From NCBI GenBank assembly GCA_947561715.1, contig OX387199.1:21395001-21459000 (forward strand): DNA of 64,000 nt. Direction: 5' to 3'. The notes under the pieces were generated by a model. The model saw only the letters and a program-made list of their open reading frames with translations. It was not told the origin of the DNA and made no database searches. Position numbers and translations under genes: made by a program. Below are positions 2,311 to 32,554 of this stretch, piece after piece; position 1 is the stretch's first letter; every line of letters starts with the position of its first letter. The DNA is from Ascidia mentula. Lineage: Eukaryota > Chordata > Ascidiacea > Phlebobranchia > Ascidiidae.

Positions 2311-4406
2311 TTAAAGTGCATATGACACGGTCATGACTACTTTGCGTAAAACTAAAGGTACATCTACAACAAACATACATCCAAAATTTTTCGGTTCTAC
2401 GTCAACTAAAAAATGTAGAAAACTGCACGAAAACTAGCGGCGACCAAAACCTTTTGCTGTGAGTGGACAAAACCACAATGCTAAATTGACTGTTTGTCTC
2501 TGTCGTGTTTTCAAAAGTTCATGTATCGCGTTAGCGATCATAATTGCTTTCAGTTTAAGTGGAATTTGTCACATTTTTTGTTCAACGAAGGTCACTTTTT
2601 CCCTACCTTTCGATATTCCAACGTTTTATGATAAAAACGTGCAACTATCAAATTTATGTCAGTGCAAAATTTGTGGGAGCTCCAAGCTAGCTCGTACCAA
2701 GCCTTTTCGTCAGTACCAACTTTAGCAAACACTTCAACTGGGGCTTTAGTGAAACTTATGTGCTTGTTAGCTCACGCCACAAGTTCGTTTTCATCTAAAT
2801 AAAGTCTAAAATTTACTGACAGCAAGGATTTTCGGAATCCACCAGCTTTGAATCCTTTGGCTTGTCGTGTGTATAATCCTTCCCTGAAGGTTCTTGAAAA
2901 TAATTTAGGCAAAAACATTCGTTAAAAGCGTACAGGAAAACAAAGGATTGCAAGATTACCAGACTGAACAACCTCTATCAGTCAAAAGACATTTTGTTCT
3001 TGAAGATGTTAGTCTTGATGTGTGCTATTGATGCTAATCACTACGATTATTCTTGTTGTTGTTTTTAGAATACTGAGGATGCCGCATAGGCGAAATATAT
3101 ATATTCAAAAATAACATCTTGATTGGCTGATTAAGTTGAAATCTAGGCCAGTCCTAGTTATCACTTTTTGTTCTTGAAATATTCGTTCACCAGCAGTTGG
3201 AAAATGGCAAACATTGTTTTTCGGACTTTCCAACATCATTTTAGTAATAAGACAAAAACGCATACCCATTGAAACCACTGGTTGTTCATCTAATGGAGGC
3301 CAACTTGCATCAGGTTTAATTGGCAAATCCGGTGTTGAGAGGCCTTCATGAACTTTGCAGACCGCCTTGCCTTTGTTAATCAAGCTCTGCTGTTTTAACA
3401 AATTAAACAACGTCTGTTGTAAAATTTGTATCGATGGTCGTTGCTTTGGGATGTGTGATGAACATTGCAACACCATTTTCTTCAGCTCGTTCTTGATGGG
3501 ACTTGCCTGTATGCATTTCATGTTAGGGTGCTCCATGCCGTAACTATCCATAAGTTTTCGGATGTCCAAGTCGTTTTCGAATGGCATCTGTCGGCTTGTC
3601 GTTGTAAACAGGACCATGCCAAAAGCGTAAATATCCTCGCTTACAGTTGATGGCAATTTGACGTTCGCCATCCTCTCTGGAGACGTGAATACGGTTTGTG
3701 TACGCACGTTATTACCGTCGGCGTAGACGTAACCGATTTTGCATCGTAACTCCAGTGAAACAAAAATATTTGCAGGTGTTAAGTCACTCTTTGTTAGTTG
3801 CCTGTAACCACTTGTGTTGTGGAGGTATGATAGACCGTCGCAGACATCGCTGGTCATTCTTAGCAGGAGTGGATCATCTATTTTCACTGCATGGTTTAAA
3901 AGCAGATTTTCGAGGGTTCCGAATGGCATGTATTCAGTGAAAACCCCAAAACCCCATTTCCATTGCGTGTAACCGTAAACTCTTACAATACGGTCGTAGT
4001 TAGCCTGATGCAAAACATCGAACAAACGAAGGACTCTAAAAATATAGTTGACAAATGAAATACTGATATTTTTGGTCCGGTACGTAATGGATTTTAGGTT
4101 TTAGGCCTACCTGTTTTTACGGCTTTGGCTTTCCTCTTTTTCTTCAATGGAAATGCTGTTAACTGCAACATACTGATACAACTCGTGATGGCACAAATTT
4201 ACAACACCTTCTGATCCAGGATATAAACTTCCTGACTCCGAAATCTCTCTTCGGACACTTTTTACATTAAAACATTTCATCTCAATGCTAGTAATGTTGT
4301 TACCGCCTAATTGCTTTACATAATGGGCTTTAATTGAAGGCCACCTGTGTTCCGCCCACAATTCAAATATGTCCAACCGGACAAACACAAAAAAATCAAA
4401 CAACAC
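512..4406 (-). CDS. TKL-like pseudokinase with small duplicated tail exons (5' and 3' ends unresolved)
   Basis: Minus-strand spliced gene. Upstream exon 4111-~4406 joins exon 3266-4035 in phase; together they encode a protein-kinase fold. A glycine-loop-like GSEGVV is followed by VAVN, so the usual VAxK lysine is Asn (codon 4158-4160). The catalytic loop reads LTKSDLTPANIF in place of HRDLKPxN, and the DFG position reads IGYV. The activation-segment end SPERM, the DIYAFG motif and the terminal RPSIQILQQTL are kept. It therefore looks like a pseudokinase of TKL/RIPK type, probably a scaffold or ligand-binding protein rather than an enzyme. The kinase exon ends in phase 1 at a GTATGCG donor and can join small exons 1760-1810 (51 nt), 1183-1222 (40), 1013-1050 (38) and 512-562 (51), all with AG/GT borders and compatible phases. 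They encode a short acidic, Thr-rich tail. The true start exon and the 3' end, beyond the left edge, are not seen. The kinase fold is firm; the tail exon chain is inference. Confidence 0.6.
2315..2490 (+). mobile_element. MITE-like fragment, TTAA-flanked left end
   Basis: Immediately after TTAA (2311-2314) the sequence AGTGCATATGACACGG begins a segment that matches the left part of the element at 39762-40532 for about 140 bp. No right-hand inverted repeat was found nearby, so this is an internally deleted or truncated copy. It lies directly to the right of the second tandem copy. Confidence 0.5.
2720..2890. repeat. Degraded third copy of the 1.38-kb tandem unit
   Basis: The stretch around 2725-2795 (GCAAACACTTCAACTGGG and following) matches positions ~165-240 and ~1543-1605. 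The stretch 2828-2880 resembles 2105-2160. The middle of the unit is deleted or too diverged to recognise. The rest of 2890-3265, which would be intron of the pseudokinase gene, shows nothing recognisable. Confidence 0.45.
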
Positions 4407-6640: not shown

Positions 6641-9600
6641 ATGGCTTCTGTTGGATGTGGTAGGGTAATTTCTGATTTTTGATTAAACTGTTCTATGTAT
6701 AAATGTTGTGCTGGTTGAACAATCGTATTTTTACCAGAGCCGAATTCCCATAAAGCTGTACAAATTATCCGACCAGTTCCTCGACAACATACCATCAATG
6801 CCACTTATGAAATCGATGAATTTGAATTTAAAAGAATATTTGGACATCCAGATGTGGCCAACACACCGGTTGCGATCTATTCAATTGCTGGAGCTTACAG
6901 AACAGGAAAATCCTTTATGTTGAATTTATTTCTGCAATACCTGCAGGCCAAGAAGCACGATAAGGTAAGTCAATCCCAAATTTTATTGTCTCGTTTTAAT
7001 ATTGTTCCCAACAGTCAGATTCGTGGCTTGATTCTACAGAAGATAAACTTGTTGAAGGTTTTACATGGCAAAGAGGTTGTGATAGACACACAGGAGGAAT
7101 TTGGATTTGGGATGAACCTTTTTTTATTGATACACCAAACACAAAAGTAATACAAAGTTAACGTTGCAACAGTGTACCTACATAATCTTTTGCAGCCCAA
7201 ACACATGCAGTGTTTTTAGGTGGCTCTATTTCTTATGGACACCGAAGGGTTGAATATCGATGATTGCAGTCAAAACTGTTGCTTTATATTTGCTCTTAGC
7301 ACTCTGTTAAGCTCAATTCAAATATACAATGTCCAGAACTATTTAAACATTAGCAGTTTACAATTTATTCAGGTGAGTGTGGGACCTATGAGATTTTCCT
7401 CTGTTAGTCGCAAAGCTTCAGTTATTGCCTCATATGTCGAGTTTATCCTGTCTTAAACTGGAGCCGGCCCCTCCACTACCACTTTAAAATATAGGTATAT
7501 ATGTAACACATGTTTAGTTAACGTATAGACTTACTGCTTTCAACAGCAAATTAATACCAGGTCATGTTCCGTATGTGAATAACTTTAAGTGCACAGTTTT
7601 CAATAAAACTAGTTTCAAACTGTTTGGACAACTGAATATATAGTTGAAATTTTAGAATTTACGCTTGTTTCTGTTTAAGATTCATTACATGCCTTTGGAT
7701 AATTTTATCAGAAAACACTGCATTGTACATTTTAATCCTAAAAATGCTTTGCACAACCATTTATGCACTGTAGATGTTTTTTTGAAATAAATTTTGTTTT
7801 GTTTTTTGATAAATTTATTCACATAAATTTATTTATTCGATTTGAAACTATGAGCCTCATGCAATGCTCACTCTGTAACGTATACTGGTTCGATTCACAA
7901 GGCTTAAAAGAATAAACATATTTTGATTGGAACGGTTGACTGAAAATATTATATCACTGGAGAAAGTACAAAGAATCCAGGTCTGTTGACCTGAGGCATA
8001 TTTACCTAAAAACACAATAAACTAAAGTAAAGCTCACCTAGGAACTCTATGCTTAACCTAAACGATAAGCGGTACCTACTGTGGCATACGTTGCCATAGC
8101 ATGATTAAATAAATTCACTGATAATATTATGTAATAATTGAATCACATTTAACAGCTTTTCACAGAATATTCTAAAAATGGTAATTTACAGAATGTTTTA
8201 AAAGTGGAAAATGCCGATGCCCTGTCTTTACATAAGATCTTGAAAATGAACAACACTGCCAGTCCAAAGCCCATCTTTCAGGTTTGGGATTTTATTTTAT
8301 GTCACATAAAACTGTGCAAATCTGTCTCTCTTCAACGAAATTCTCTCTTTATGTCACTCTTTTTTCTAGAGTAAACCTAAGTTTAATTATATTTCAAGCA
8401 CTTGATGGTTCTTCTTCGTGATTGGAGCAATATGGATTATGAATTTGGTTTCGATGATGGTGAGAAATATCTTCAGGAAATCTTGCACCGCACTGAAGAA
8501 AAATCAAAAGCAGATTCAGTTTGGAAGGGGTTGCGTGGTAATTTTGAAAACATCTCTTGTTGTTTGATGCCACATCCAGGAAAATGTGTGGTTTGGAGAA
8601 AAAGAAACTCAGGTAAACTTCAAATGAAAGGTTGTATTGTAAAATAACTTGTCACATGAAATAAAATACAATTAACTCATGTTATTACTTATGCAACCAA
8701 TGTTTTCTTAATCTGTCACAGATTTAGATGAGGAATTTCTTGACACAATCAATTCGATTGTGAAAAAACTATTTTCAAAAGAACTAAATGTGATAAAAAA
8801 AGTCAACGGCAATGCAGTTACAGGAACTGATTTCATCAACTTAAGCTTGTCTTACTTTAAAGCACTGAACAATGGGAAAATGCCTGATGTTAAAGCAATA
8901 GCTCAGGTAAAGACTTTGATTGCACAAACCAACATAATAATTGAAATATACAACAAATAATGTAATTTGAAGTTTAATACTTAACAAAAAACCATGTTTG
9001 TTGTTTGTTCAGTAATTGTTTTTTTTTGACAAATTAGATATTTTGTAACATGCTTGTTTAAATACAAAACTTAAGTCTTGTTTACTTTGTTTTGGTGATA
9101 ACTTTTTTGTAAAAAGCATGTTAGAAGAATAAATTAATTTTTTTTTTTTGTAATTTATCTTGTGTGTTTAGGTACAAGCAGAATACATTTTTGAACAAGT
9201 CGTTCAAGAATGCATTAATGCCTATAAACAACAAATGAAAAAAGTAACTTCAAAATGACTTTCGTTTATTCATTTTCTAAAACAATGTATAACACATATA
9301 TATGCTTTTCTTGCAGTTTTGTGAAGACCAATGTCACAGCCAAACTCTCTTTGAACAAGAACACAAACATTTGAAAGCAGAAGTTCTAAAAAAGTTTGAT
9401 AGCGAATTAGATTTTGGCTATACTGAGTTTGTTGCCAAAGACCGCAAACATTTGGATGAAAACATGGACTTAGAGTTTGTCTCGTTGAAACAAATCAATG
9501 AAGCGAAACTGGTGTGAGAAACTTATGTAACCATTTGTTGTGACATTGGCAATAATGTACTAATTTTAAGTTCTTACGTATAGTAATCCAGTAAGTAAGC

Positions 9601-12600
9601 TACTTTAATTCTGTGTATTTTTGATAGATCAGGTAGACTGCTGAAAATTTAACATACAAACTTAGTGTAAAGCAGCATTGGTAACAATGGTTGCCAACTT
9701 TCAGTTAAACACATGTTGCTTACAGTATATTGCACCAGAAATGTCCTATTTAAATCTGAAAATTTTAGGGCATGAAATGTACCAACACGAGTTTAGAAAT
9801 TAATCACCTATATTAATATTGTCCCTAGTAAATCTTTAAAAAATCTAAAGCCGGTCACATCTAACCTGAATGACTAAAATTACCAATCTAGATGCAAGCT
9901 TTAAAAGCCACAGAAGAATGTGCAAAAAATTACAAGAAACGTATGGAAGAGGTAAGTCATAAATAGTTGTTTCAATCATTGAGCAGCATCTGATACCAAA
10001 CTTAATGCAGTTTTGCAAGGAACAATGCCACAGCCAACCCTCCTTTAAGGGGGAACATTACACTTTGAAAGCAGAAGCTCGGCAAAACTTCAAAAGCAAA
10101 CTAAATTTTGGCAATAGTGACTTGGTTGCAAAGTACTTGAAACACTTGAATGAAAACCTGGACAAGGAGTTTCTTGTGTATGAACAGAAGAATGAAGAAT
10201 ATTTGGTGAGTAAACCTTTGTTTCATTTAAAATAATTTGCTAATGGAATTGGGACATGAAGTAGTGCGATATAGCAAAATATGTGTCTAAGTTTATTCTT
10301 TCAAAAATTGAGATTTTTTTGCAAGAATTTAAAAGTGAAACTTACTTTAAGCAACATTGGAGAAACATTTTGTGTGAAGCTGAAGGAGATACCAAAAAAC
10401 ACTACAACCAGGAAATGCATAAAGTAAGGTTTTTTTCCCATCAGAAACTATTTATTGTCATGAATGATTTTTTTCAGGCACTCAATGAACAATATTTGGA
10501 TGAAACTCAGTTTGAATTGGTTGAAAGGCAGTGCCAAGAAAGGGCCTTTCAATTTTACAATGAAATGACAAAAAAATTCCCAACTGGATTCGATCTTAAA
10601 CCTGACAGTAAAATTAGGGATTTGTTGACTGAGCTTGGTCTTCAGTTTTTGAAAGAAAACACAAGAAGTCTTGTAAGTAATTGCCCACTTGAGATTTGTT
10701 AAAGTTGTTAATTAACAGTGAAAAGTTGTCAAAACGCTAGCAGGTAGTCATGAATGTTGGTATTCTGACAACATTATGAAAGCACAGTATAGATTTTTGT
10801 ATGTTCGGGAACTTAATAAAAACTCAACCCAAACCAAGGAGGTGTGAAATTTCCATCACTAATTAAAGTCCATTAATAGCTACATAAGGTTTTATAAATT
10901 TATATATTATGTATTTATTGTATTATACCTAATGTTAAATCTTGATTTTAAGAAAAAAATTATATGACTTGCATTTTAGAAAATGACTTTTGAAAGTAAA
11001 AAAAAATTCACGAAACAGTTAATTTTTCAGAAACAAAGAGAATATAAAGTAATGAGGACAAAGTCATCAGTGGTTGGTGTGGAAGGTGGTAAACTTGAAG
11101 TGATGGGTTGCATTGTTGATATTCATCCTAAAGCACTTAATACAGAGGAAAAAATTTGTCTACGTAGCTACTATGAAAATACGAAGCACAGTGTATGTGG
11201 TTGCACATTTTCATTAAAAACAAACATTGAAGAATGCTCTTGTCATTATCTTATTTGTTTTCATTGGATATTATTTTATTTAACAAACTCCTATCAGTTT
11301 TTTTCTCTTTCATAAACAATCAATACTTGTTTGTTTCAAAAATTCATTAAATCAATTGAACAATATAAATAGTTGACTATAATTGACAAGTAGATATGAA
11401 TGATCATTATTTACTTCATTCCACAGAAAGAAATTACTCCAGTGTTGTATTGTGGACCAAGTGGTTTAAAGTTCACCAAAGATGTCTCCATCACTTTACC
11501 AACATGCTTTTTGTGTGAAGATCCTCCCCAACCAGTTGTGGTAAGTGGGAGCAATTTCTTTTACTTTGTGTGGTAAAAACCAGTGTGTAGATTCAGATTT
11601 AAATAGTTACTAACCTAGTAAATTTTAAACTGTTTTTGCATAACATATGCTGTAAATAATGTTGCCATTATACTCCATGTAAAGGTTGAAACAAGCCATG
11701 ATGGAAAAACATGGAAAGATTACAAAAGTTTATCCTATAGTGATGAGGGAGAGTTTAAATTTGAAGTTACTCATTTCACTTGGTGAGTGTAACATCACAT
11801 AAAGTTAAAGGCATTCTTTTAATTTGTGTCTTACTTTAGGTTTCGTGTGGTCAGCAAGAAACTATCAAATTTGTCAAAGGAGAAAATGGTATTGGTTGGA
11901 TTTTCAGAAAAGGAAAATTATGACCATGTTAAAAGATCATGGGGATTTCTCATTTGTGACAGACTGAAATTTAACCTCATTTCAAATCCCACTTTAAAAT
12001 TGTTGTTTGGTTTTCCATTGAGGTAATAAATCACATCATGGTTTTTAATTTTATCGTTTTGCAAAGCTTTAAGGTCTTGATCTCCTCTTGTATGTCCGGT
12101 GTTCTTTAAAAAAAGGCATATTATATTTGAAGCTTTAAAGTAGTGTCAACAAAGTTAACAAATCTTCTGTAATTATTTGAAACTTTTAATTAAAAGGCAC
12201 CTTAGTTACTAAAAGATTAAATATCCCAAATCTGATACAATATTCACAGCAACTTAATCTAATACAATTTTAAGCAATATTTTTAAAACATTTCCCTTTT
12301 CAGTAAATAGTCTAAGTTTGACATAGCTATTGTAAAATTTCATTAAATTCCCGTACATGCTTGTGTTAATTTGATCACTAGATCGAATCAAAATGAAGCA
12401 ATACTGACACTTGAAAGTGAAAGTGGTCGAGTTACCTTTAATCAGAATGACATCAAGTTGAAAAACATTTTCCTGAACAATTTGGAAAAACTCAATATTG
12501 TTTTCAATTTTGCTCCACATAATGGTGATGAAATAGTTGACCTTAAACTGGATTTGAATGGAAAGTTTCACAAAACAAACTTTAAAGTAAAAGTTGAAAT

Positions 12601-12766
12601 ACCACACAAACAACAAGAAGTAAGTGGGAAATATTCTCTGTAGCACTCTATAGAAACATGCAAGTTTCTACATCTGTACATTTGTATCCAGGAAGAGAAA
12701 AAACAGCAATCTGATTCAAAAAATGACAGGTTACATCAAGCAAGTATGATAAAGTATATATTTTAG
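6641..12766 (+). CDS. Atlastin/GBP-like GTPase with triplicated helical bundle and C-terminal ZU5-UPA
   Basis: Exons: 6641-6659, 6738-6964, 7015-7146, 7220-7372, 8156-8281, 8399-8612, 8722-8906, 9172-9243, 9317-9511, 9892-9951, 10011-10205, 10313-10423, 10478-10672, 10980-11192, 11427-11540, 11685-11782, 11840-12022, 12382-12619, and 12692 to a stop at 12764-12766 or a donor near 12743. All joins keep one frame (910 codons to 12619). Residues 1-350 form a dynamin-superfamily GTPase of atlastin/GBP type: G1 GAYRTGKS (58-65), G3 DTEG (133-136), G4 RDW (226-228), plus IFALSTLLSSIQIYN. Residues 353-628 are three linker-plus-bundle repeats like the atlastin three-helix bundle. Residues ~656-770 are ZU5 (VEGGKLEVMG, CGPSGLKF), followed by a UPA-like domain to ~910. 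HFTW at 767-770 sits where PIDD and FIIND proteins have HF|S. There is no atlastin-type membrane hairpin. The reading frame appears intact. It probably hydrolyses GTP; an immune or scaffold role is inference. Confidence 0.85.
7373..8155 (+). other. Longest ordinary intron of the GTPase gene
   Basis: AT-rich intron between exons 4 and 5, with no gene or repeat recognised. Its equivalent at 50468-51324 contains about 80 bp of extra sequence near 50915-50995. Confidence 0.6.
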
Positions 12767-14655
12767 GACGCATATTGGTATTTCTATGAAAATTAGTTTT
12801 GGTGCTGGGAAATGCCCACCGTGTAGACCTGTGTCACAATGCAAAGTCATGCATCACCAAGCAAAGCAGTGACGCAATTAAGTTAAATTTACGGTTGAAT
12901 GAGCGCACATGTGCGTGCTGTTGTCATGGCGAATTTTAAGGTGTTTGGGGCAGTTTTAGTGTGGTTTTGAGCTATTCCAATTAGGTAGTAACTTGCTGGT
13001 GGGTGCTGCTGAAATTTATGTTGAAAATGGAGCAAAAAAATCAGGCTGTGTTTGTGGCAAAATGAATCGTTTAAGTGTCCAATCATTTGTGATTTTATGA
13101 AAGATCCATTTCATATCTACAAATTTTGATCAAAATTAGTCTCCGAAAAAATGGTTTAGCCACCCCCCTAGGGCCATTTGCCCCCCTGGTTACTCAATAT
13201 TTTGGTTAAAAGAGCAACCAAAAATGGAACTGGATTTTGCAGAAAAATGAATCGTTCAACTACCCACTCATTTGCATTTTTTTGTAAGTTCCAACTCTTC
13301 TCTATGCGATGGCATCAAATTTAGTTGTTGAAAAAGTGTCAATGCCCTCCCCCAAGGGCTGGGTATACCCCCCTGTTGGTCATATGATCTTCCAGGAGGC
13401 CCAAAAAGTCCTTGCTCTGTACAGTCTCATCCAGGAGGAATTTTTTTTTTTTCAACTTTGTAGAATTCCAGGTCCCTATGTAAGTCACAAGACCCATCAA
13501 CGGTCATTGGGAAACAAGCGGAACAGTCGCTAGATGCATTACAGCCGAGGGCCTTGAACACAGGATTTCTCCTATCTAATACCCATATAGGTCCTTAAGG
13601 CGAAATGTCAAATTTTTTAAATGGTGAAATAGACATTAAATTTACACTGAAATATGTTTATTTATGTAAGTTAAACATCATAGGAGGATTTTAAACCAGC
13701 TCCAGTCATCAGTCGCCACCTAGTGACAAAAATGAATTTTTTCAATGCCCTAATGTACATAAAGTATGGGGTCTGTTGCATGACTTTCAGCTTTCAAACA
13801 ACTTGAAATATAGCTTAAAATGCATGCATTTCCTCTATTGTCATTCCGCAACACATTTTGAGTCATTTATAACACATAGTTTTTGCAATGTATTGTTCAT
13901 TCGTCATGGCATTTGTTGCATGTGCTGTCTTTCACAGCATCCATTCTTTTGTTGACCTATTTTGCAAAATCTTGAATTAAAGGCTTTTTCATCTTGTTTA
14001 GTCATAATACATGAAATATAATTATTTTGTGGCCTAAGTACTGTATTTATTGCCACAGAAAGAAGTGGTCCAATGCCGGTGGGTGATACTTCAGACGAAA
14101 GGATTCCAATAAACCCACTGCTGAAACTGCCGCAACCAACAATGTATTTCCTGTATGTACTGCACTTGTTGACATGTACAGTAGTTCCTAATTGTGTTTG
14201 GGCCATTAAATTTCAATACAAAACACTTTGCAAGGTCTTGTGGGCCACTTAACAGCACTTTTTTCATGTCATTTTCATGCTTTGGAGATAGCCATGATTT
14301 CTTGCCATTATGCATGTGACTAATTAGCCTCGAATATTGATTAATTGAAACTTTTGTTGTGCCATTGAGCATGTGTGCATACAAATGGGTGTTGCCATGA
14401 CTGGTGCATGATGTTTCGGTGTAATTTATGTGAACCGCTTAAGGTCGGTGGCATCATTTTCTGCCTATTAGCTGTACTGCTTGTAGCCCTGCTGATAAGG
14501 CCATTTTGTGTTGTTTAGGGGGTGTTGGCAAAAACAGCCATAACTCTGGGATCGATGATCAACCAGGTGTGAAACTTCACATTGTGATAGGTGAATGTCC
14601 CATATACTTTGCGGCTTAGGCCAATTGGGAATCTGGTCCATTGACCTTCTATTGA

Positions 14656-17600
14656 AGGACGCATATTGGTATTTCTATGAAAATTAGTTTTGGTGCTGGG
14701 AAATGCCCACCGTGTAGACCTGTGTCACAATGCAAAGTCATGCATCACCAAGCAAAGCAGTGACGCAATTAAGTTAAATTTACGGTTGAATGAGCGCACA
14801 TGTGCGTGCTGTTGTCATGGCGAATTTTAAGGTGTTTGGGGCAGTTTTAGTGTGGTTTTGAGCTATTCCAATTAGGTAGTAACTTGCTGGTGGGTGCTGC
14901 TGAAATTTATGTTGAAAATGGAGCAAAAAAATCAGGCTGTGTTTGTGGCAAAATGAATCGTTTAAGTGTCCAATCATTTGTGATTTTATGAAAGATCCAT
15001 TTCATATCTACAAATTTTGATCAAAATTAGTCTCCGAAAAAATGGTTTAGCCACCCCCCTAGGGCCATTTGCCCCCCTGGTTACTCAATATTTTGGTTAA
15101 AAGAGCAACCAAAAATGGAACTGGATTTTGCAGAAAAATGAATCGTTCAACTACCCACTCATTTGCATTTTTTTGTAAGTTCCAACTCTTCTCTATGCGA
15201 TGGCATCAAATTTAGTTGTTGAAAAAGTGTCAATGCCCTCCCCCAAGGGCTGGGTATACCCCCCTGTTGGTCATATGATCTTCCAGGAGGCCCAAAAAGT
15301 CCTTGCTCTGTACAGTCTCATCCAGGAGGAATTTTTTTTTTTTCAACTTTGTAGAATTCCAGGTCCCTATGTAAGTCACAAGACCCATCAACGGTCATTG
15401 GGAAACAAGCGGAACAGTCGCTAGATGCATTACAGCCGAGGGCCTTGAACACAGGATTTCTCCTATCTAATACCCATATAGGTCCTTAAGGCGAAATGTC
15501 AAATTTTTTAAATGGTGAAATAGACATTAAATTTACACTGAAATATGTTTATTTATGTAAGTTAAACATCATAGGAGGATTTTAAACCAGCTCCAGTCAT
15601 CAGTCGCCACCTAGTGACAAAAATGAATTTTTTCAATGCCCTAATGTACATAAAGTATGGGGTCTGTTGCATGACTTTCAGCTTTCAAACAACTTGAAAT
15701 ATAGCTTAAAATGCATGCATTTCCTCTATTGTCATTCCGCAACACATTTTGAGTCATTTATAACACATAGTTTTTGCAATGTATTGTTCATTCGTCATGG
15801 CATTTGTTGCATGTGCTGTCTTTCACAGCATCCATTCTTTTGTTGACCTATTTTGCAAAATCTTGAATTAAAGGCTTTTTCATCTTGTTTAGTCATAATA
15901 CATGAAATATAATTATTTTGTGGCCTAAGTACTGTATTTATTGCCACAGAAAGAAGTGGTCCAATGCCGGTGGGTGATACTTCAGACGAAAGGATTCCAA
16001 TAAACCCACTGCTGAAACTGCCGCAACCAACAATGTATTTCCTGTATGTACTGCACTTGTTGACATGTACAGTAGTTCCTAATTGTGTTTGGGCCATTAA
16101 ATTTCAATACAAAACACTTTGCAAGGTCTTGTGGGCCACTTAACAGCACTTTTTTCATGTCATTTTCATGCTTTGGAGATAGCCATGATTTCTTGCCATT
16201 ATGCATGTGACTAATTAGCCTCGAATATTGATTAATTGAAACTTTTGTTGTGCCATTGAGCATGTGTGCATACAAATGGGTGTTGCCATGACTGGTGCAT
16301 GATGTTTCGGTGTAATTTATGTGAACCGCTTAAGGTCGGTGGCATCATTTTCTGCCTATTAGCTGTACTGCTTGTAGCCCTGCTGATAAGGCCATTTTGT
16401 GTTGTTTAGGGGGTGTTGGCAAAAACAGCCATAACTCTGGGATCGATGATCAACCAGGTGTGAAACTTCACATTGTGATAGGTGAATGTCCCATATACTT
16501 TGCGGCTTAGGCCAATTGGGAATCTGGTCCATTGACCTTCTATTGAAAGGCGAAATGTCAAATTTTTTAAATGGTGAAATAGACATTAAATTTACACTGA
16601 AATATGTTTATTTATGTAAGTTAAACATCATAGGAGGATTTTAAACCAGCTCCAGTCATCAGTCGCCACCTAGTGACAAAAATGAATTTTTTCAATGCCC
16701 TAATGTACATAAAGTATGGGGTCTGTTGCATGACTTTCAGCTTTCAAACAACTTGAAATATAGCTTAAAATGCATGCATTTCCTCTATTGTCATTCCGCA
16801 ACACATTTTGAGTCATTTATAACACATAGTTTTTGCAATGTATTGTTCATTCGTCATGGCATTTGTTGCATGTGCTGTCTTTCACAGCATCCATTCTTTT
16901 GTTGACCTATTTTGCAAAATCTTGAATTAAAGGCTTTTTCATCTTGTTTAGTCATAATACATGAAATATAATTATTTTGTGGCCTAAGTACTGTATTTAT
17001 TGCCACAGAAAGAAGTGGTCCAATGCCGGTGGGTGATACTTCAGACGAAAGGATTCCAATAAACCCACTGCTGAAACTGCCGCAACCAACAATGTATTTC
17101 CTGTATGTACTGCACTTGTTGACATGTACAGTAGTTCCTAATTGTGTTTGGGCCATTAAATTTCAATACAAAACACTTTGCAAGGTCTTGTGGGCCACTT
17201 AACAGCACTTTTTTCATGTCATTTTCATGCTTTGGAGATAGCCATGATTTCTTGCCATTATGCATGTGACTAATTAGCCTCGAATATTGATTAATTGAAA
17301 CTTTTGTTGTGCCATTGAGCATGTGTGCATACAAATGGGTGTTGCCATGACTGGTGCATGATGTTTCGGTGTAATTTATGTGAACCGCTTAAGGTCGGTG
17401 GCATCATTTTCTGCCTATTAGCTGTACTGCTTGTAGCCCTGCTGATAAGGCCATTTTGTGTTGTTTAGGGGGTGTTGGCAAAAACAGCCATAACTCTGGG
17501 ATCGATGATCAACCAGGTGTGAAACTTCACATTGTGATAGGTGAATGTCCCATATACTTTGCGGCTTAGGCCAATTGGGAATCTGGTCCATTGACCTTCT

Positions 17601-18663
17601 ATTTAAGGCGAAATGTCAAATTTTTTAAATGGTGAAATAGACATTAAATTTACACTGAAATATGTTTATTTATGTAAGTTAAACATCATAGGAGGATTTT
17701 AAACCAGCTCCAGTCATCAGTCGCCACCTAGTGACAAAAATGAATTTTTTCAATGCCCTAATGTACATAAAGTATGGGGTCTGTTGCATGACTTTCAGCT
17801 TTCAAACAACTTGAAATATAGCTTAAAATGCATGCATTTCCTCTATTGTCATTCCGCAACACATTTTGAGTCATTTATAACACATAGTTTTTGCAATGTA
17901 TTGTTCATTCGTCATGGCATTTGTTGCATGTGCTGTCTTTCACAGCATCCATTCTTTTGTTGACCTATTTTGCAAAATCTTGAATTAAAGGCTTTTTCAT
18001 CTTGTTTAGTCATAATACATGAAATATAATTATTTTGTGGCCTAAGTACTGTATTTATTGCCACAGAAAGAAGTGGTCCAATGCCGGTGGGTGATACTTC
18101 AGACGAAAGGATTCCAATAAACCCACTGCTGAAACTGCCGCAACCAACAATGTATTTCCTGTATGTACTGCACTTGTTGACATGTACAGTAGTTCCTAAT
18201 TGTGTTTGGGCCATTAAATTTCAATACAAAACACTTTGCAAGGTCTTGTGGGCCACTTAACAGCACTTTTTTCATGTCATTTTCATGCTTTGGAGATAGC
18301 CATGATTTCTTGCCATTATGCATGTGACTAATTAGCCTCGAATATTGATTAATTGAAACTTTTGTTGTGCCATTGAGCATGTGTGCATACAAATGGGTGT
18401 TGCCATGACTGGTGCATGATGTTTCGGTGTAATTTATGTGAACCGCTTAAGGTCGGTGGCATCATTTTCTGCCTATTAGCTGTACTGCTTGTAGCCCTGC
18501 TGATAAGGCCATTTTGTGTTGTTTAGGGGGTGTTGGCAAAAACAGCCATAACTCTGGGATCGATGATCAACCAGGTGTGAAACTTCACATTGTGATAGGT
18601 GAATGTCCCATATACTTTGCGGCTTAGGCCAATTGGGAATCTGGTCCATTGACCTTCTATTGA
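14656..18663. repeat. Higher-order repeat A-B-B-B, copy 1 (4008 bp)
   Basis: A2-B2-B3-B4. The B2/B3 junction reads ATTGAAAGGCG and the B3/B4 junction ATTTAAGGCG. The same pair of junctions in the same order recurs exactly 4008 bp later, which marks this four-unit block as the thing that was duplicated. Confidence 0.8.
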
Positions 18664-21600
18664 AGGACGCATATTGGTATTTCTATGAAAATTAGTTTTG
18701 GTGCTGGGAAATGCCCACCGTGTAGACCTGTGTCACAATGCAAAGTCATGCATCACCAAGCAAAGCAGTGACGCAATTAAGTTAAATTTACGGTTGAATG
18801 AGCGCACATGTGCGTGCTGTTGTCATGGCGAATTTTAAGGTGTTTGGGGCAGTTTTAGTGTGGTTTTGAGCTATTCCAATTAGGTAGTAACTTGCTGGTG
18901 GGTGCTGCTGAAATTTATGTTGAAAATGGAGCAAAAAAATCAGGCTGTGTTTGTGGCAAAATGAATCGTTTAAGTGTCCAATCATTTGTGATTTTATGAA
19001 AGATCCATTTCATATCTACAAATTTTGATCAAAATTAGTCTCCGAAAAAATGGTTTAGCCACCCCCCTAGGGCCATTTGCCCCCCTGGTTACTCAATATT
19101 TTGGTTAAAAGAGCAACCAAAAATGGAACTGGATTTTGCAGAAAAATGAATCGTTCAACTACCCACTCATTTGCATTTTTTTGTAAGTTCCAACTCTTCT
19201 CTATGCGATGGCATCAAATTTAGTTGTTGAAAAAGTGTCAATGCCCTCCCCCAAGGGCTGGGTATACCCCCCTGTTGGTCATATGATCTTCCAGGAGGCC
19301 CAAAAAGTCCTTGCTCTGTACAGTCTCATCCAGGAGGAATTTTTTTTTTTTCAACTTTGTAGAATTCCAGGTCCCTATGTAAGTCACAAGACCCATCAAC
19401 GGTCATTGGGAAACAAGCGGAACAGTCGCTAGATGCATTACAGCCGAGGGCCTTGAACACAGGATTTCTCCTATCTAATACCCATATAGGTCCTTAAGGC
19501 GAAATGTCAAATTTTTTAAATGGTGAAATAGACATTAAATTTACACTGAAATATGTTTATTTATGTAAGTTAAACATCATAGGAGGATTTTAAACCAGCT
19601 CCAGTCATCAGTCGCCACCTAGTGACAAAAATGAATTTTTTCAATGCCCTAATGTACATAAAGTATGGGGTCTGTTGCATGACTTTCAGCTTTCAAACAA
19701 CTTGAAATATAGCTTAAAATGCATGCATTTCCTCTATTGTCATTCCGCAACACATTTTGAGTCATTTATAACACATAGTTTTTGCAATGTATTGTTCATT
19801 CGTCATGGCATTTGTTGCATGTGCTGTCTTTCACAGCATCCATTCTTTTGTTGACCTATTTTGCAAAATCTTGAATTAAAGGCTTTTTCATCTTGTTTAG
19901 TCATAATACATGAAATATAATTATTTTGTGGCCTAAGTACTGTATTTATTGCCACAGAAAGAAGTGGTCCAATGCCGGTGGGTGATACTTCAGACGAAAG
20001 GATTCCAATAAACCCACTGCTGAAACTGCCGCAACCAACAATGTATTTCCTGTATGTACTGCACTTGTTGACATGTACAGTAGTTCCTAATTGTGTTTGG
20101 GCCATTAAATTTCAATACAAAACACTTTGCAAGGTCTTGTGGGCCACTTAACAGCACTTTTTTCATGTCATTTTCATGCTTTGGAGATAGCCATGATTTC
20201 TTGCCATTATGCATGTGACTAATTAGCCTCGAATATTGATTAATTGAAACTTTTGTTGTGCCATTGAGCATGTGTGCATACAAATGGGTGTTGCCATGAC
20301 TGGTGCATGATGTTTCGGTGTAATTTATGTGAACCGCTTAAGGTCGGTGGCATCATTTTCTGCCTATTAGCTGTACTGCTTGTAGCCCTGCTGATAAGGC
20401 CATTTTGTGTTGTTTAGGGGGTGTTGGCAAAAACAGCCATAACTCTGGGATCGATGATCAACCAGGTGTGAAACTTCACATTGTGATAGGTGAATGTCCC
20501 ATATACTTTGCGGCTTAGGCCAATTGGGAATCTGGTCCATTGACCTTCTATTGAAAGGCGAAATGTCAAATTTTTTAAATGGTGAAATAGACATTAAATT
20601 TACACTGAAATATGTTTATTTATGTAAGTTAAACATCATAGGAGGATTTTAAACCAGCTCCAGTCATCAGTCGCCACCTAGTGACAAAAATGAATTTTTT
20701 CAATGCCCTAATGTACATAAAGTATGGGGTCTGTTGCATGACTTTCAGCTTTCAAACAACTTGAAATATAGCTTAAAATGCATGCATTTCCTCTATTGTC
20801 ATTCCGCAACACATTTTGAGTCATTTATAACACATAGTTTTTGCAATGTATTGTTCATTCGTCATGGCATTTGTTGCATGTGCTGTCTTTCACAGCATCC
20901 ATTCTTTTGTTGACCTATTTTGCAAAATCTTGAATTAAAGGCTTTTTCATCTTGTTTAGTCATAATACATGAAATATAATTATTTTGTGGCCTAAGTACT
21001 GTATTTATTGCCACAGAAAGAAGTGGTCCAATGCCGGTGGGTGATACTTCAGACGAAAGGATTCCAATAAACCCACTGCTGAAACTGCCGCAACCAACAA
21101 TGTATTTCCTGTATGTACTGCACTTGTTGACATGTACAGTAGTTCCTAATTGTGTTTGGGCCATTAAATTTCAATACAAAACACTTTGCAAGGTCTTGTG
21201 GGCCACTTAACAGCACTTTTTTCATGTCATTTTCATGCTTTGGAGATAGCCATGATTTCTTGCCATTATGCATGTGACTAATTAGCCTCGAATATTGATT
21301 AATTGAAACTTTTGTTGTGCCATTGAGCATGTGTGCATACAAATGGGTGTTGCCATGACTGGTGCATGATGTTTCGGTGTAATTTATGTGAACCGCTTAA
21401 GGTCGGTGGCATCATTTTCTGCCTATTAGCTGTACTGCTTGTAGCCCTGCTGATAAGGCCATTTTGTGTTGTTTAGGGGGTGTTGGCAAAAACAGCCATA
21501 ACTCTGGGATCGATGATCAACCAGGTGTGAAACTTCACATTGTGATAGGTGAATGTCCCATATACTTTGCGGCTTAGGCCAATTGGGAATCTGGTCCATT

Positions 21601-22671
21601 GACCTTCTATTTAAGGCGAAATGTCAAATTTTTTAAATGGTGAAATAGACATTAAATTTACACTGAAATATGTTTATTTATGTAAGTTAAACATCATAGG
21701 AGGATTTTAAACCAGCTCCAGTCATCAGTCGCCACCTAGTGACAAAAATGAATTTTTTCAATGCCCTAATGTACATAAAGTATGGGGTCTGTTGCATGAC
21801 TTTCAGCTTTCAAACAACTTGAAATATAGCTTAAAATGCATGCATTTCCTCTATTGTCATTCCGCAACACATTTTGAGTCATTTATAACACATAGTTTTT
21901 GCAATGTATTGTTCATTCGTCATGGCATTTGTTGCATGTGCTGTCTTTCACAGCATCCATTCTTTTGTTGACCTATTTTGCAAAATCTTGAATTAAAGGC
22001 TTTTTCATCTTGTTTAGTCATAATACATGAAATATAATTATTTTGTGGCCTAAGTACTGTATTTATTGCCACAGAAAGAAGTGGTCCAATGCCGGTGGGT
22101 GATACTTCAGACGAAAGGATTCCAATAAACCCACTGCTGAAACTGCCGCAACCAACAATGTATTTCCTGTATGTACTGCACTTGTTGACATGTACAGTAG
22201 TTCCTAATTGTGTTTGGGCCATTAAATTTCAATACAAAACACTTTGCAAGGTCTTGTGGGCCACTTAACAGCACTTTTTTCATGTCATTTTCATGCTTTG
22301 GAGATAGCCATGATTTCTTGCCATTATGCATGTGACTAATTAGCCTCGAATATTGATTAATTGAAACTTTTGTTGTGCCATTGAGCATGTGTGCATACAA
22401 ATGGGTGTTGCCATGACTGGTGCATGATGTTTCGGTGTAATTTATGTGAACCGCTTAAGGTCGGTGGCATCATTTTCTGCCTATTAGCTGTACTGCTTGT
22501 AGCCCTGCTGATAAGGCCATTTTGTGTTGTTTAGGGGGTGTTGGCAAAAACAGCCATAACTCTGGGATCGATGATCAACCAGGTGTGAAACTTCACATTG
22601 TGATAGGTGAATGTCCCATATACTTTGCGGCTTAGGCCAATTGGGAATCTGGTCCATTGACCTTCTATTGA
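18664..22671. repeat. Higher-order repeat A-B-B-B, copy 2 (4008 bp)
   Basis: A3-B5-B6-B7 repeats the junction pattern of 14656-18663. It is followed by one further B (B8, junction ATTGAAAGGCG), then A4-B9-A5. Confidence 0.8.
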
Positions 22672-25600
22672 AAGGCGAAATGTCAAATTTTTTAAATGGT
22701 GAAATAGACATTAAATTTACACTGAAATATGTTTATTTATGTAAGTTAAACATCATAGGAGGATTTTAAACCAGCTCCAGTCATCAGTCGCCACCTAGTG
22801 ACAAAAATGAATTTTTTCAATGCCCTAATGTACATAAAGTATGGGGTCTGTTGCATGACTTTCAGCTTTCAAACAACTTGAAATATAGCTTAAAATGCAT
22901 GCATTTCCTCTATTGTCATTCCGCAACACATTTTGAGTCATTTATAACACATAGTTTTTGCAATGTATTGTTCATTCGTCATGGCATTTGTTGCATGTGC
23001 TGTCTTTCACAGCATCCATTCTTTTGTTGACCTATTTTGCAAAATCTTGAATTAAAGGCTTTTTCATCTTGTTTAGTCATAATACATGAAATATAATTAT
23101 TTTGTGGCCTAAGTACTGTATTTATTGCCACAGAAAGAAGTGGTCCAATGCCGGTGGGTGATACTTCAGACGAAAGGATTCCAATAAACCCACTGCTGAA
23201 ACTGCCGCAACCAACAATGTATTTCCTGTATGTACTGCACTTGTTGACATGTACAGTAGTTCCTAATTGTGTTTGGGCCATTAAATTTCAATACAAAACA
23301 CTTTGCAAGGTCTTGTGGGCCACTTAACAGCACTTTTTTCATGTCATTTTCATGCTTTGGAGATAGCCATGATTTCTTGCCATTATGCATGTGACTAATT
23401 AGCCTCGAATATTGATTAATTGAAACTTTTGTTGTGCCATTGAGCATGTGTGCATACAAATGGGTGTTGCCATGACTGGTGCATGATGTTTCGGTGTAAT
23501 TTATGTGAACCGCTTAAGGTCGGTGGCATCATTTTCTGCCTATTAGCTGTACTGCTTGTAGCCCTGCTGATAAGGCCATTTTGTGTTGTTTAGGGGGTGT
23601 TGGCAAAAACAGCCATAACTCTGGGATCGATGATCAACCAGGTGTGAAACTTCACATTGTGATAGGTGAATGTCCCATATACTTTGCGGCTTAGGCCAAT
23701 TGGGAATCTGGTCCATTGACCTTCTATTGAAGGACGCATATTGGTATTTCTATGAAAATTAGTTTTGGTGCTGGGAAATGCCCACCGTGTAGACCTGTGT
23801 CACAATGCAAAGTCATGCATCACCAAGCAAAGCAGTGACGCAATTAAGTTAAATTTACGGTTGAATGAGCGCACATGTGCGTGCTGTTGTCATGGCGAAT
23901 TTTAAGGTGTTTGGGGCAGTTTTAGTGTGGTTTTGAGCTATTCCAATTAGGTAGTAACTTGCTGGTGGGTGCTGCTGAAATTTATGTTGAAAATGGAGCA
24001 AAAAAATCAGGCTGTGTTTGTGGCAAAATGAATCGTTTAAGTGTCCAATCATTTGTGATTTTATGAAAGATCCATTTCATATCTACAAATTTTGATCAAA
24101 ATTAGTCTCCGAAAAAATGGTTTAGCCACCCCCCTAGGGCCATTTGCCCCCCTGGTTACTCAATATTTTGGTTAAAAGAGCAACCAAAAATGGAACTGGA
24201 TTTTGCAGAAAAATGAATCGTTCAACTACCCACTCATTTGCATTTTTTTGTAAGTTCCAACTCTTCTCTATGCGATGGCATCAAATTTAGTTGTTGAAAA
24301 AGTGTCAATGCCCTCCCCCAAGGGCTGGGTATACCCCCCTGTTGGTCATATGATCTTCCAGGAGGCCCAAAAAGTCCTTGCTCTGTACAGTCTCATCCAG
24401 GAGGAATTTTTTTTTTTTCAACTTTGTAGAATTCCAGGTCCCTATGTAAGTCACAAGACCCATCAACGGTCATTGGGAAACAAGCGGAACAGTCGCTAGA
24501 TGCATTACAGCCGAGGGCCTTGAACACAGGATTTCTCCTATCTAATACCCATATAGGTCCTTAAGGCGAAATGTCAAATTTTTTAAATGGTGAAATAGAC
24601 ATTAAATTTACACTGAAATATGTTTATTTATGTAAGTTAAACATCATAGGAGGATTTTAAACCAGCTCCAGTCATCAGTCGCCACCTAGTGACAAAAATG
24701 AATTTTTTCAATGCCCTAATGTACATAAAGTATGGGGTCTGTTGCATGACTTTCAGCTTTCAAACAACTTGAAATATAGCTTAAAATGCATGCATTTCCT
24801 CTATTGTCATTCCGCAACACATTTTGAGTCATTTATAACACATAGTTTTTGCAATGTATTGTTCATTCGTCATGGCATTTGTTGCATGTGCTGTCTTTCA
24901 CAGCATCCATTCTTTTGTTGACCTATTTTGCAAAATCTTGAATTAAAGGCTTTTTCATCTTGTTTAGTCATAATACATGAAATATAATTATTTTGTGGCC
25001 TAAGTACTGTATTTATTGCCACAGAAAGAAGTGGTCCAATGCCGGTGGGTGATACTTCAGACGAAAGGATTCCAATAAACCCACTGCTGAAACTGCCGCA
25101 ACCAACAATGTATTTCCTGTATGTACTGCACTTGTTGACATGTACAGTAGTTCCTAATTGTGTTTGGGCCATTAAATTTCAATACAAAACACTTTGCAAG
25201 GTCTTGTGGGCCACTTAACAGCACTTTTTTCATGTCATTTTCATGCTTTGGAGATAGCCATGATTTCTTGCCATTATGCATGTGACTAATTAGCCTCGAA
25301 TATTGATTAATTGAAACTTTTGTTGTGCCATTGAGCATGTGTGCATACAAATGGGTGTTGCCATGACTGGTGCATGATGTTTCGGTGTAATTTATGTGAA
25401 CCGCTTAAGGTCGGTGGCATCATTTTCTGCCTATTAGCTGTACTGCTTGTAGCCCTGCTGATAAGGCCATTTTGTGTTGTTTAGGGGGTGTTGGCAAAAA
25501 CAGCCATAACTCTGGGATCGATGATCAACCAGGTGTGAAACTTCACATTGTGATAGGTGAATGTCCCATATACTTTGCGGCTTAGGCCAATTGGGAATCT

Positions 25601-26925
25601 GGTCCATTGACCTTCTATTGAAGGACGCATATTGGTATTTCTATGAAAATTAGTTTTGGTGCTGGGAAATGCCCACCGTGTAGACCTGTGTCACAATGCA
25701 AAGTCATGCATCACCAAGCAAAGCAGTGACGCAATTAAGTTAAATTTACGGTTGAATGAGCGCACATGTGCGTGCTGTTGTCATGGCGAATTTTAAGGTG
25801 TTTGGGGCAGTTTTAGTGTGGTTTTGAGCTATTCCAATTAGGTAGTAACTTGCTGGTGGGTGCTGCTGAAATTTATGTTGAAAATGGAGCAAAAAAATCA
25901 GGCTGTGTTTGTGGCAAAATGAATCGTTTAAGTGTCCAATCATTTGTGATTTTATGAAAGATCCATTTCATATCTACAAATTTTGATCAAAATTAGTCTC
26001 CGAAAAAATGGTTTAGCCACCCCCCTAGGGCCATTTGCCCCCCTGGTTACTCAATATTTTGGTTAAAAGAGCAACCAAAAATGGAACTGGATTTTGCAGA
26101 AAAATGAATCGTTCAACTACCCACTCATTTGCATTTTTTTGTAAGTTCCAACTCTTCTCTATGCGATGGCATCAAATTTAGTTGTTGAAAAAGTGTCAAT
26201 GCCCTCCCCCAAGGGCTGGGTATACCCCCCTGTTGGTCATATGATCTTCCAGGAGGCCCAAAAAGTCCTTGCTCTGTACAGTCTCATCCAGGAGGAATTT
26301 TTTTTTTTTCAACTTTGTAGAATTCCAGGTCCCTATGTAAGTCACAAGACCCATCAACGGTCATTGGGAAACAAGCGGAACAGTCGCTAGATGCATTACA
26401 GCCGAGGGCCTTGAACACAGGATTTCTCCTATCTAATACCCATATAGGTCCTTTAGTTTATGGGTGTATTTCATTCTTGTAAAATGTGATATTCAGATAC
26501 TCTGTTCTCTGCCAACACATTTTACAACCCAAACATTCATATAGCAGGAGGCTCAATTAACAAAACGAATAATTAACAACTGACGTCTACTAGGCTTTAA
26601 TAAGGTTTGTAAGGCTGAAATACACTTGTATGAAACATAATTCTACAAAAACAATTTAATTTTACTTAACACAATATAAATTGAGGCTGCATGAACAATA
26701 AAAAATCTTATAGGCATTGAGTTGAATAATTTCCATAATATTGTTTTGTTCTAGCCTAGCTTGTCTCTAAAAATATGTAATTTGCAAGTAACAACAAGAA
26801 ATTGGGATTTTTGTGAAAAAAAATAGCACCAGATGATTATCCTGGTTAAATGTGCATAATAAATAAAAACTGGCACATACAGATATTTTGAAGATTGTCA
26901 TGTAATAAATCTTATTGTTTTTCAG

Positions 26926-27027
26926 AACAAATGTAGGCAACAATTGAGGGCAATGGCAAAGAAAGGTAAATTCGAACCAAAACCGTCTTTCTGCCCAAAA
27001 CGAACCATCAGTAATGAAAAAATATAA
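26926..27027 (+). other. Candidate terminal exon of the GTPase gene beyond the array
   Basis: A strong acceptor (TTGTTTTTCAG) precedes AACAAATGTAGGCAAC, and the same site is kept in module 2 at about 56652. In one frame it is open for 33 codons in module 1 (stop at 27025-27027) and stops after 11 codons in module 2. No donor of exon 12692-12743 gives that frame; the available donors read only a few residues. It is either a 3'UTR-type exon or not used. 26454-26925 and 27028-27565 show nothing else recognisable. Confidence 0.3.
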
Positions 27028-27565
27028 AACACTTCAAATCAATATGTACAAAAATACAAAGCACTTCAGTGTCTTGATAATCTATTCTGCATGTCATTCC
27101 CCATTCTATTGCAATCACTGTGGCTTGTCCCACCTCTTATACTTTATTTCATAAGAATGGAAACGTTGATTTTTAGTCAAAATATTTCTGGCATCTTTCC
27201 TATGTAAGACAAATATACTCTAAAGCAATCACTGTCTAAGAAACACTGAAAAGTTTAGACATAGAAAAACTTGGTGTTGGTGTTTTGCCCAACGATTCCA
27301 TTCTTGTAATAATTTTTTTTACGAATGTACATATTCTCTGTTTCATATCTTTGCACTTTTTTTATACGTTTTCAAACATACCTTGTTTTTGGAACTTTGT
27401 TGTCCTCCTGTTGGTGCTCAGCAGTTTACCTGTGCAATATATACAAACGTTGTTTGTTTATTATCCAGTTTGTTTTATTGAAATTGCCTTTGTGATCTTT
27501 TTGTGCCCTTCGTGACTTTCATGTATTTTAATCGTGTTTATTGATTTGATTTTTTGTGAAAAAAC

Positions 27566-28075
27566 GCATATTGGTATTTCTGTGAAAATAAGTTTCGGTG
27601 GTGGGAAATGCCCAACGTGTGGACCTTTGTCACAACGGAAGGGCACGTAACAGAGCAAACCAGTGATGCATGGGGGTCTATTGTGCATTCGAAAAAGCGC
27701 ACATGCGTTGTCATGGCGAATTTTTAGGGTGTTCGTTGCAGTTTAGTGGGGTTTTGGGCTATTTCAATTAGGTAGTTACTTGCTGGTGGGTGCTGATGAA
27801 AGTTATGGTGAAAATGTAGCTCAAAATTTAGGCTATATTTGTGGGAAAATGTATTGTTTACGGTGGCCGATCATTCGTGATTTTATGAAAGATCAATCCC
27901 AGTTCTACAAATGTTGATCAAAATTATAGTCTCTGGACAAATTGTTTAGCCACCCCCCTGGTTAGTCAATATTTTGCTAAAAAAACAACAATTAATGGTA
28001 CTGGATTTTGCAAAAATATTAATTATTTAACTGACCTGTCATTTGCATTTTTGTGGTAGTTTTAAGGTAAGTCTT
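27566..28075. repeat. Diverged single copy of the A-unit 5' half (module 1)
   Basis: About 510 bp resemble the first ~530 bp of unit A: ACGCATATTGGTATTTCTGTG at the left and CATTTGCATTTTTGTGG at the right, with many substitutions. The same relic stands at 57353-57860 in module 2, so it predates the module duplication. The 300 bp of A after this point are not found here. 28076-28543 holds no recognised feature apart from the presumed 3'UTR of the minus-strand gene. Confidence 0.75.
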
Positions 28076-28543
28076 TGCATAACCTCACCGTGTGCTTTGT
28101 TAAGGCAGCTGCAATCAATTTTTCTCAGTTAAGCAATAGTAGCCCCCAAATAGATTTTTTAACCTCAGAGTCTACTATTTGTGCATCGTAGTCTTTTTCT
28201 TTGGTAATAAGCACCCCTGCTATAAAGCTATCATCAGGACCAAAAGACGTGTATTGGGCAGCGCATTCAATACAAATTAACTGGAAACCAAGTAATAAAT
28301 GAACTGCTGATACGAAACATACAAAGCCTTAACGAAATCGTACAATGATAAGAAGTATTCGTTTGGTGAGCAGTGGCAAATCGTTATTATACACGTGAAA
28401 TGACGATATTCATATAAAATGCAACAAAGAAAATCATAAACACTACAGTTTTATCTCATGTAATACTCTGTACAGTTTGTACGTTCTGCAAGACAAAGCT
28501 GCTCCTGTGTTTGTTTCGTACAAACGAGATTGTTAAAGGATTG

Positions 28544-29806: not shown

Positions 29807-30562
29807 CTGGCTTTTATAACAAAATTCCAGTAACAAAACGATTTAAAATGGTTGTAGCAGTCAATCAAAACTATGACGTAATAGTATACTCACAATGTCA
29901 AAGAGTTAATATCCTTAGTTTGTATATATATAGATTTTATATCAAGGAGAAATGTCAGTATATGGACGTTTAAACCTGATACAGTGTAACTGGTTGGGTA
30001 CAAAGTCAAAAATTATCATGGTAAGAGCAAACGTTTCGCAACTTGGCGTGCAAACCGCTTTGTTTACTTCACTGAAATTTCCCTACTTGGTGGAACAAAC
30101 TATTGACACACAGCTTGTGTTAGGTGATAGCTTGGTTTGTCAGGGAACAAAACTATGTGTTTAGCTACACAACTATGTGCTGCAACACTATCTGCCAAAT
30201 ATTAAATTAAAATATCTTCATTTAAGAAAAATACAAATCTCCCATGAATAAAAAAAAACGTGTGAATGTCCAGAAAAAGTTTTGAGCAGAAATTTTGTAC
30301 CAAGGTGTTCGTAGGTGTCGTCCATATTGCTGTTTTACTCCTGGTAAAAAAAGAAATGTATATTTATTAGTTTCAATATGTTTTGAAATACTGGTAGTTG
30401 CACACCGTAAAGTTACGCTTGTCGTTTTATCTGAAAGTTAAAAATAGTGAAACAAGTTGGATTTAGTTGAAACCGCACGGTTACGAAGAATTACCGATAT
30501 ACTAAATTGTTTACAGTTGGAAAAAATTTTACGCAGAAGTCAAGATTTTTTTTTTTTTTTAC

Positions 30563-32483: not shown

Positions 32484-32554
32484 TATTTACTTATGTAGTT
32501 GTATGTTTGTTATATATTTTGTGTCAATGATTTCATTATTAGTAATACCTCCTC

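Follow-up and report, generated by a model that had tools for sequence, protein, structure and literature searches.

An atlastin-type GTPase gene of Ascidia mentula with a ZU5 tail that recurs behind leucine-rich repeats

Zebrafish Gbp1, Gbp3, and Gbp4 consist of a large GTPase and a helical part followed by a FIIND (ZU5-UPA) tail and a C-terminal CARD, as stated in PMC6721725 and in the legend to Fig. 1 of PMC4932187, and the joining of a GTPase to a FIIND is an already known kind of architecture. Two further systems close to the gene considered here are the immune sensor NLRP1 (NACHT-LRR-FIIND-CARD, where LRR denotes leucine-rich repeats) and PIDD (LRR-ZU5-ZU5-UPA-death domain). PMC3210808 reports that PIDD self-cleaves after ZU5 at HF/S and that CARD8 and NLRP1 do so at SF/S, with Ser, Thr, or Cys starting the reaction in self-cleaving proteins generally, and PMC7794386 reports that the UPA promotes assembly of the C-terminal fragments of NLRP1 and CARD8. 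Here we describe a plus-strand gene at positions 6641-12766 of a 64,000-nucleotide window of the ascidian Ascidia mentula (C52:21395001-21459000, the contig deposited as OX387199.1, in an assembly of 195.8 Mb in 79 contigs), whose product we read, with a probability of about one half, as a soluble atlastin-family GTPase that has extra repeated units and a FIIND/PIDD-type ZU5(-UPA) tail, lacks a CARD, and acts as a cut-and-release sensor. An earlier sequence-only reading of this DNA knew of no described GBP or atlastin with such a tail, a claim of novelty that fails in that form because the zebrafish proteins carry FIIND-CARD; what is new here is the atlastin base, the missing CARD, and a module held in common with LRR/NACHT (NLR-like) genes of the same genome.

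Zebrafish Gbp1, Gbp3, and Gbp4 are GBPs with a C-terminal CARD, whereas the window gene has an atlastin-type GTPase with three repeated units, and its model ends just after the tail, with a C-terminal CARD absent. With NLRP1 it has in common a ZU5 with a self-cleavage-type motif placed behind a sensor scaffold, and relatives in this genome carry LRR parts, accompanied by NACHT where one was found; NLRP1, however, has SF/S, a CARD, and NACHT-LRR, where the window gene has HF[ST], no CARD, and a GTPase. The likeness to PIDD lies in the HF/S-type motif at the ZU5 end (PMC3210808), but PIDD has two ZU5 domains and a death domain, whereas in the window gene one ZU5 and no death domain were found, and the front is a GTPase. 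Among the open papers searched, no tunicate gene of the atlastin-ZU5 kind was found in print.

The revised gene model has 19 exons and a product of 914 residues, and its spliced translation shows GT/AG at every junction and no internal stop across 6641-12766, which upholds the single spliced frame that had been proposed. The features of this gene and of its second copy in the window are as follows:

6641-6659, plus strand: exon 1 (spliced translation)
6738-6964, 7015-7146, 7220-7372, 8156-8281, 8399-8612, 8722-8906, plus strand: exons 2-7, atlastin-type GTPase (Pfam PF02263, PDB)
9172-9243, 9317-9511, 9892-9951, 10011-10209, 10326-10423, 10478-10672, plus strand: exons 8-13, three repeated units (recurring exon lengths)
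11031-11192, 11427-11540, 11685-11782, plus strand: exons 14-16, ZU5 domain (Pfam ZU5, 22.6 bits)
11772-11780, plus strand: H-F-T codons at the ZU5 end, an H-F-[ST] motif at the position of the PIDD HF/S site
11840-12022, 12382-12619, plus strand: exons 17-18, domain of about 140 residues in the UPA position, conserved in the atlastin-like family and in the LRR family of contig C70
12692-12766, plus strand: last exon, ending QASMIKYIF and a stop; the QASM ending recurs after C70 tails
49752-55995, plus strand: second, decaying copy, with G1 EAYRTRRS, G3 VTEG, and G4 HDR, the donor after exon 6 lost, and frameshifts

The motifs G1 GAYRTGKS (residue 58), G3 DTEG (133), G4 RDW (226), and CGPSGLKF (688), all picked out in the sequence-only reading, are present in the product, and VGVEGG lies at residue 640, in the spliced tail of 289 residues. 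The start of exon 14 had been placed at 10980, giving a product of 931 residues, and we have replaced it with 11031, directly after tttttcag, because the additional 17-residue stretch (KMTFES..LIFQ) is frameshifted in four of five paralogues and because the ZU5 exon begins at the equivalent splice site in the six C70 genes read there. With the corrected start, the paralogues p1153 and p1232 are free of stops and frameshifts, and the p1153 model reaches residue 897 of 914. The junction between exons 13 and 14, which joins the repeated units to the tail, is in phase 0 and has good splice sites, with an intron of 358 bases. An extra 3' exon near 26.93 kb was also tried and dropped, as it meets an immediate stop when read and a QASM ending is also seen at all three C70 loci inspected, where a frame with QASMTK (L048 and L056) or QASMTTH (L060) follows the tail.

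The GTPase classifies as atlastin-type and not GBP-type, so the earlier label of GBP had to be given up. The GBP/atlastin N-terminal domain covers residues 30-312 (Pfam PF02263, 2.8e-47), and the best solved structure in the PDB is atlastin 3x1d (2e-55, residues 24-442), whereas the best GBP is GBP5 at 3e-15. In a tree of 21 rows, a 100/100 branch places the three ZU5-bearing copies with the atlastins and apart from four oomycete GBPs, and by path the closest named row is a protein of the tunicate Clavelina, in a part of the tree where the tunicate rows do not separate. The GBP C-terminal domain PF02841 scores 20.1 bits (E 4.7e-4), under its cut-off of 24.3, and some atlastin-named hits carry PF02841 too. 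Atlastins, which are membrane-remodelling proteins, have the same G1, G3, and RDW-type GTPase and a membrane hairpin after the middle domain, whereas the window protein has no transmembrane-like stretch after its GTPase, its highest 19-residue hydropathy of 1.58 falling within the GTPase. Atlastin-like proteins of the tunicates Clavelina, Styela, Phallusia, and Ciona have the same class of GTPase and a long extension, and the seven tunicate hits have the GBP domain alone in the precomputed Pfam record, unlike the window protein.

Behind the GTPase, each of the three repeated units closes with an exon of 195-199 nucleotides (exons 9, 11, and 13), and exon 9 of the window gene is 76% identical in nucleotides to exon 11 of the second copy. 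These had been called three helical repeats, of which the three units stand, and their helical nature is suggested for the first by its alignment with atlastin 3x1d, which reaches residue 442, and for the others by repetition. Exon arrays matching one repeated unit, at a spacing of about 0.6-0.8 kb, also occur near GBP-domain matches on contig C67 at 22.21-22.25 Mb, and may represent atlastin-like genes with many repeated units.

In the tail, the proposed ZU5 domain was recovered by profile search at residues 670-710 (Pfam, 1.3e-4, 22.6 bits, where the cut-off is 21), and with E values of up to 10 allowed, ZU5 is listed for all ten aligned tails, the best value being 7.9e-7. The motif H-F-[ST] closes ZU5 in 21 of the 22 genes read, F being kept in all 22 and H in 21; the six atlastin copies have H-F-T in five cases and H-F-S in one, and the 16 C70 genes for which DNA was read have H-F-T in 15 and N-F-T in one. 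Peptidase S68, which we take to be the family of PIDD, and S59 (Nup98) are each listed in Pfam for two of the ten tails, at best E values of 0.02 and 0.012, and in the window tail both (0.17 and 0.56, respectively) are located on the H-F-T motif. We infer that the ZU5 of the tail would cleave itself at this motif.

The domain that follows ZU5 was earlier called UPA-like, and this stands as far as its place and its length of about 140 residues are concerned, while its identity as UPA is unconfirmed by profile. The whole tail aligns over 193 columns, reaching into the post-ZU5 domain, with the relative L097 at an E value of 3.5e-9. This gene and L089 (contig C71, 4.35 and 2.13 Mb, respectively) each form one long frame that combines a hydrophobic stretch and an H-F-S motif with a ZU5-like domain scoring below cut-off, and are possibly membrane-anchored relatives. 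Genome-wide searches with UPA and FIIND profiles gave no match in the assembly, and since they gave none in control genomes either, they are uninformative. Two protein searches, whose reach was limited to relatives having short exact words in common with the query, returned nothing: one with the tail region had 6219 candidates (E<=1), and the other, with an eight-row tail alignment, had 6899 (E<=0.01).

A search of the assembly with the tail gave at least 155 exon matches, and the ZU5 module sits on two sensor scaffolds, the GTPase and LRR/NACHT, because an LRR match lies upstream of most C70 tail exons and NACHT was found at two tail-bearing genes. Among the matches listed (the best 150 of 859 LRR candidates), 31 of the 33 C70 exons that start ZU5 are preceded on their own strand by an LRR match no more than 3 kb away, and the nearest LRR match lies 140-718 bases before the tail exons; the query, two exons from L088, itself matches LRR_6 at 28.1 bits against a Pfam cut-off of 23.4. 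The NACHT searches, which scored 95 of 317 candidates and 144 of 211, place NACHT 4.4 kb upstream of the C70 tail at 893.8 kb and 10.7 kb upstream of that at 786.5 kb, which is one of the two without an LRR match. On contig C1, NACHT at C1:24506701 (4.1e-18) lies 4.7 kb upstream of the tail match at C1:24512168, and between 24.98 and 25.16 Mb it lies 1.6-3.3 kb upstream of four of five ZU5-family matches, two of the four being below cut-off. Very large clusters of NACHT genes occur at C71 14.2-15.4 Mb, C70 0.2-1.97 Mb, C2 16.1-16.8 Mb, and C52 1.1-2.8 Mb.

The atlastin-like and C70 families share an exon pattern near 162/114/98/183 nucleotides, and the LRR exon before ZU5 is in phase 0 at its predicted donor in both loci checked, as is exon 13 of the window gene. 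The comparison with FIIND and PIDD drawn in the sequence-only reading gains from the H-F-[ST] motif and from the module behind LRR exons, which is the NLRP1 order, and keeps an unproven UPA. In a tree of 19 tails, made up of the six atlastin tails and 13 of the 16 readable C70 genes, the six form one side of a 96/94 branch, and because of this grouping the atlastin tails fit a single transfer, after which there was local duplication and exchange. It looks as though one signalling tail is common to two kinds of sensor.

The six tail loci on C52 lie at 21.157, 21.200, 21.237, 21.375, 21.406, and 21.449 Mb, and each of them is preceded, at a distance of 3.7-4.8 kb and on its own strand, by a GBP-domain match. 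That all six keep the order of GTPase and ZU5, and that the tail exons are open in all of them, argues that the order is more than chance. Exons 15-18 of the tail, 211 codons, have no stop or indel at any of the six loci, including the otherwise decaying second copy, and the ratio of nonsynonymous to synonymous substitution (dN/dS) across the tail is 0.27-0.56 in 14 of 15 pairs. Three of the copies (the window copy, p1153, and p1232) have no stop or frameshift anywhere, p1370 is interrupted by a single stop, located in exon 12, and exons 8-9 are not recognisable in p1197. The second copy and p1153 have tails that are 96.7% identical, but the GTPase of the second copy is 70.7% identical to p1153 and 86.9% to the window copy, and because tail and GTPase disagree in this way, the tails are read as having been exchanged among C52 copies. 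Elsewhere in the C52 cluster, further members show the repeated units but no tail among the matches listed, which suggests that the tail was gained locally.

A number of results weigh against the reading of the window protein as a cut-and-release sensor. Pfam gives no UPA or FIIND match on the window protein or its relatives, and the PDB gives no UPA match by profile for the tail; the UPA profile alone, set against L097 and L089, yields a weak match (E 0.028, probability 1.8%), and structure prediction on these two single-frame relatives yielded a predicted local distance difference test (pLDDT) score of 33 and no usable fold. The residue at the putative cleavage site is Thr and not Ser in five of six atlastin copies and in all 16 C70 genes, one of them being the N-F-T gene, and the S68 and S59 matches are all under cut-off. 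No CARD or death domain was listed beside the tails in exon-wise searches, which can miss split domains, and three CARD matches exceed the cut-off in the whole assembly by the same kind of search. The main C70 group, at 2.09-2.64 Mb, has no NACHT among the matches listed, and for this reason its members are called LRR genes only. On the GTPase side, p1232 has the variant motifs G3 DSHG and G4 HDW, dN/dS between the window and second copies is 0.80 (exons 3, 4, 6, and 7), and exon 3 by itself gives 0.49-0.93 in nine of ten pairs, the tenth being undefined; the GTPase part looks to be under weaker constraint than the tail, where the remaining pair has a dN/dS of 0.84.

It is possible, though we think it rather unlikely, that the tail is a non-cleaving structural module like that of UNC5, ankyrin, or ZO-1, serving oligomerisation or the binding of cytoskeleton or membrane partners, in which H-F-T is a mere core motif. 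The tail profile has its best PDB match in the ZU5 of ZO-1 (2.2e-3), and UNC5B (0.48) and ankyrin-2 (0.63) also appear, ranking below unrelated lectins (0.07-0.09); the prevalence of Thr at the site, seen in almost every copy, and the unconfirmed UPA point the same way. However, UNC5b has Leu677 where CARD8 has its key Phe296, according to PMC3210808, whereas the Phe is invariant in the genes read here and the His nearly so (22/22 and 21/22), and PIDD and NLRP1 have their parts in this LRR-ZU5 order. It is improbable that the family is decaying, largely pseudogenic, and of little function. The second copy has lost G1, G3, G4, a donor site, and its frames, p1370 and p1197 are damaged as described, and GTPase dN/dS is 0.6-0.9 in most comparisons, but the window copy, p1153, and p1232 have no stop or frameshift, and the tails remain open at all six loci with the low dN/dS values given above.

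The part order shared with zebrafish Gbp1, Gbp3, and Gbp4, described as FIIND-CARD proteins in PMC6721725, would also be expected if both descended from an old chordate GTPase-FIIND gene, with the CARD gained in fish or lost here. The atlastin-type GTPase (2e-55 against 3e-15 for a GBP, with the 100/100 split from the four oomycete GBPs) and the C52 members that have repeated units but no tail among the matches listed, which suggest local gain, make such shared ancestry very doubtful. Least probable is that two adjacent genes, one atlastin-like and the other a separate ZU5 gene, have been misread as one. The model does come from genomic DNA, an intron of 358 bases lies at the boundary, and the tail occurs elsewhere behind LRRs, but order and strand are kept at six of six C52 loci, the phase-0 junction of exons 13 and 14 has good splice sites, and the C70 tails, standing directly behind LRR exons, are part of a larger gene there too.

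The surroundings of the gene in the window contain several other features. A tandem array at 12759-26453, whose units are spaced at about 1059 and 1891 bases, starts within the last codons of the gene; the listed pairs of its units are 99.8-100% identical, possibly an effect of assembly, and the second copy is accompanied by a single piece of the array, 80% identical, at 57352-57749. A segmental duplication relates 26817-31496 to 56543-61352 and also 36854-39201 to 61644-63999, at 93-96% nucleotide identity, and carries the GTPase gene, a frame of 313-317 residues that matches nothing in Pfam, and a sulfotransferase-like exon. A retrotransposon-like element at 31677-35530 on the plus strand has frames of 268 and 994 residues, with endonuclease and reverse transcriptase on the second, and a protein kinase frame at 3105-4100 on the minus strand (PF07714, 5e-19) adjoins the gene.

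If the window protein is indeed a cut-and-release sensor, the ZU5 would cut itself after the Phe at HF/T, with the two halves staying joined at rest; the GTPase would assemble on its target, and this assembly, driven by GTP, or else removal of the N-terminal part, would free or cluster the C-terminal part, which, because the tail has no CARD, is proposed to bind a partner directly. The tail would in this way act as a portable output module. The sequence-only reading proposed a putative coupling between the polymerisation state of the GTPase and a ZU5-UPA signalling module. The duplication, the exchange of tails, and the module held in common with NLR-like genes together suggest a putative family of innate-immune sensors. 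As to origin, we tentatively suggest that a CARD-less self-cleaving ZU5-UPA module was transferred, by way of an intron boundary in phase 0, between two sensor classes with no relation to each other, the LRR/NACHT genes and the atlastin GTPases, and was later exchanged among copies. If true, this would parallel the vertebrate pair of NLRP1 and teleost Gbp, in which one tail serves two sensors, the same pairing being seen here with a different GTPase and no CARD, and the principle of releasing a C-terminal half would be older than the CARD inflammasomes or separate from them in origin. It would also make testable the idea of ZU5-UPA cut-and-release as the ancestral unit and of the CARD as a later addition, with about forty natural variants of the module (33 listed C70 exons and six C52 loci) present in one genome.

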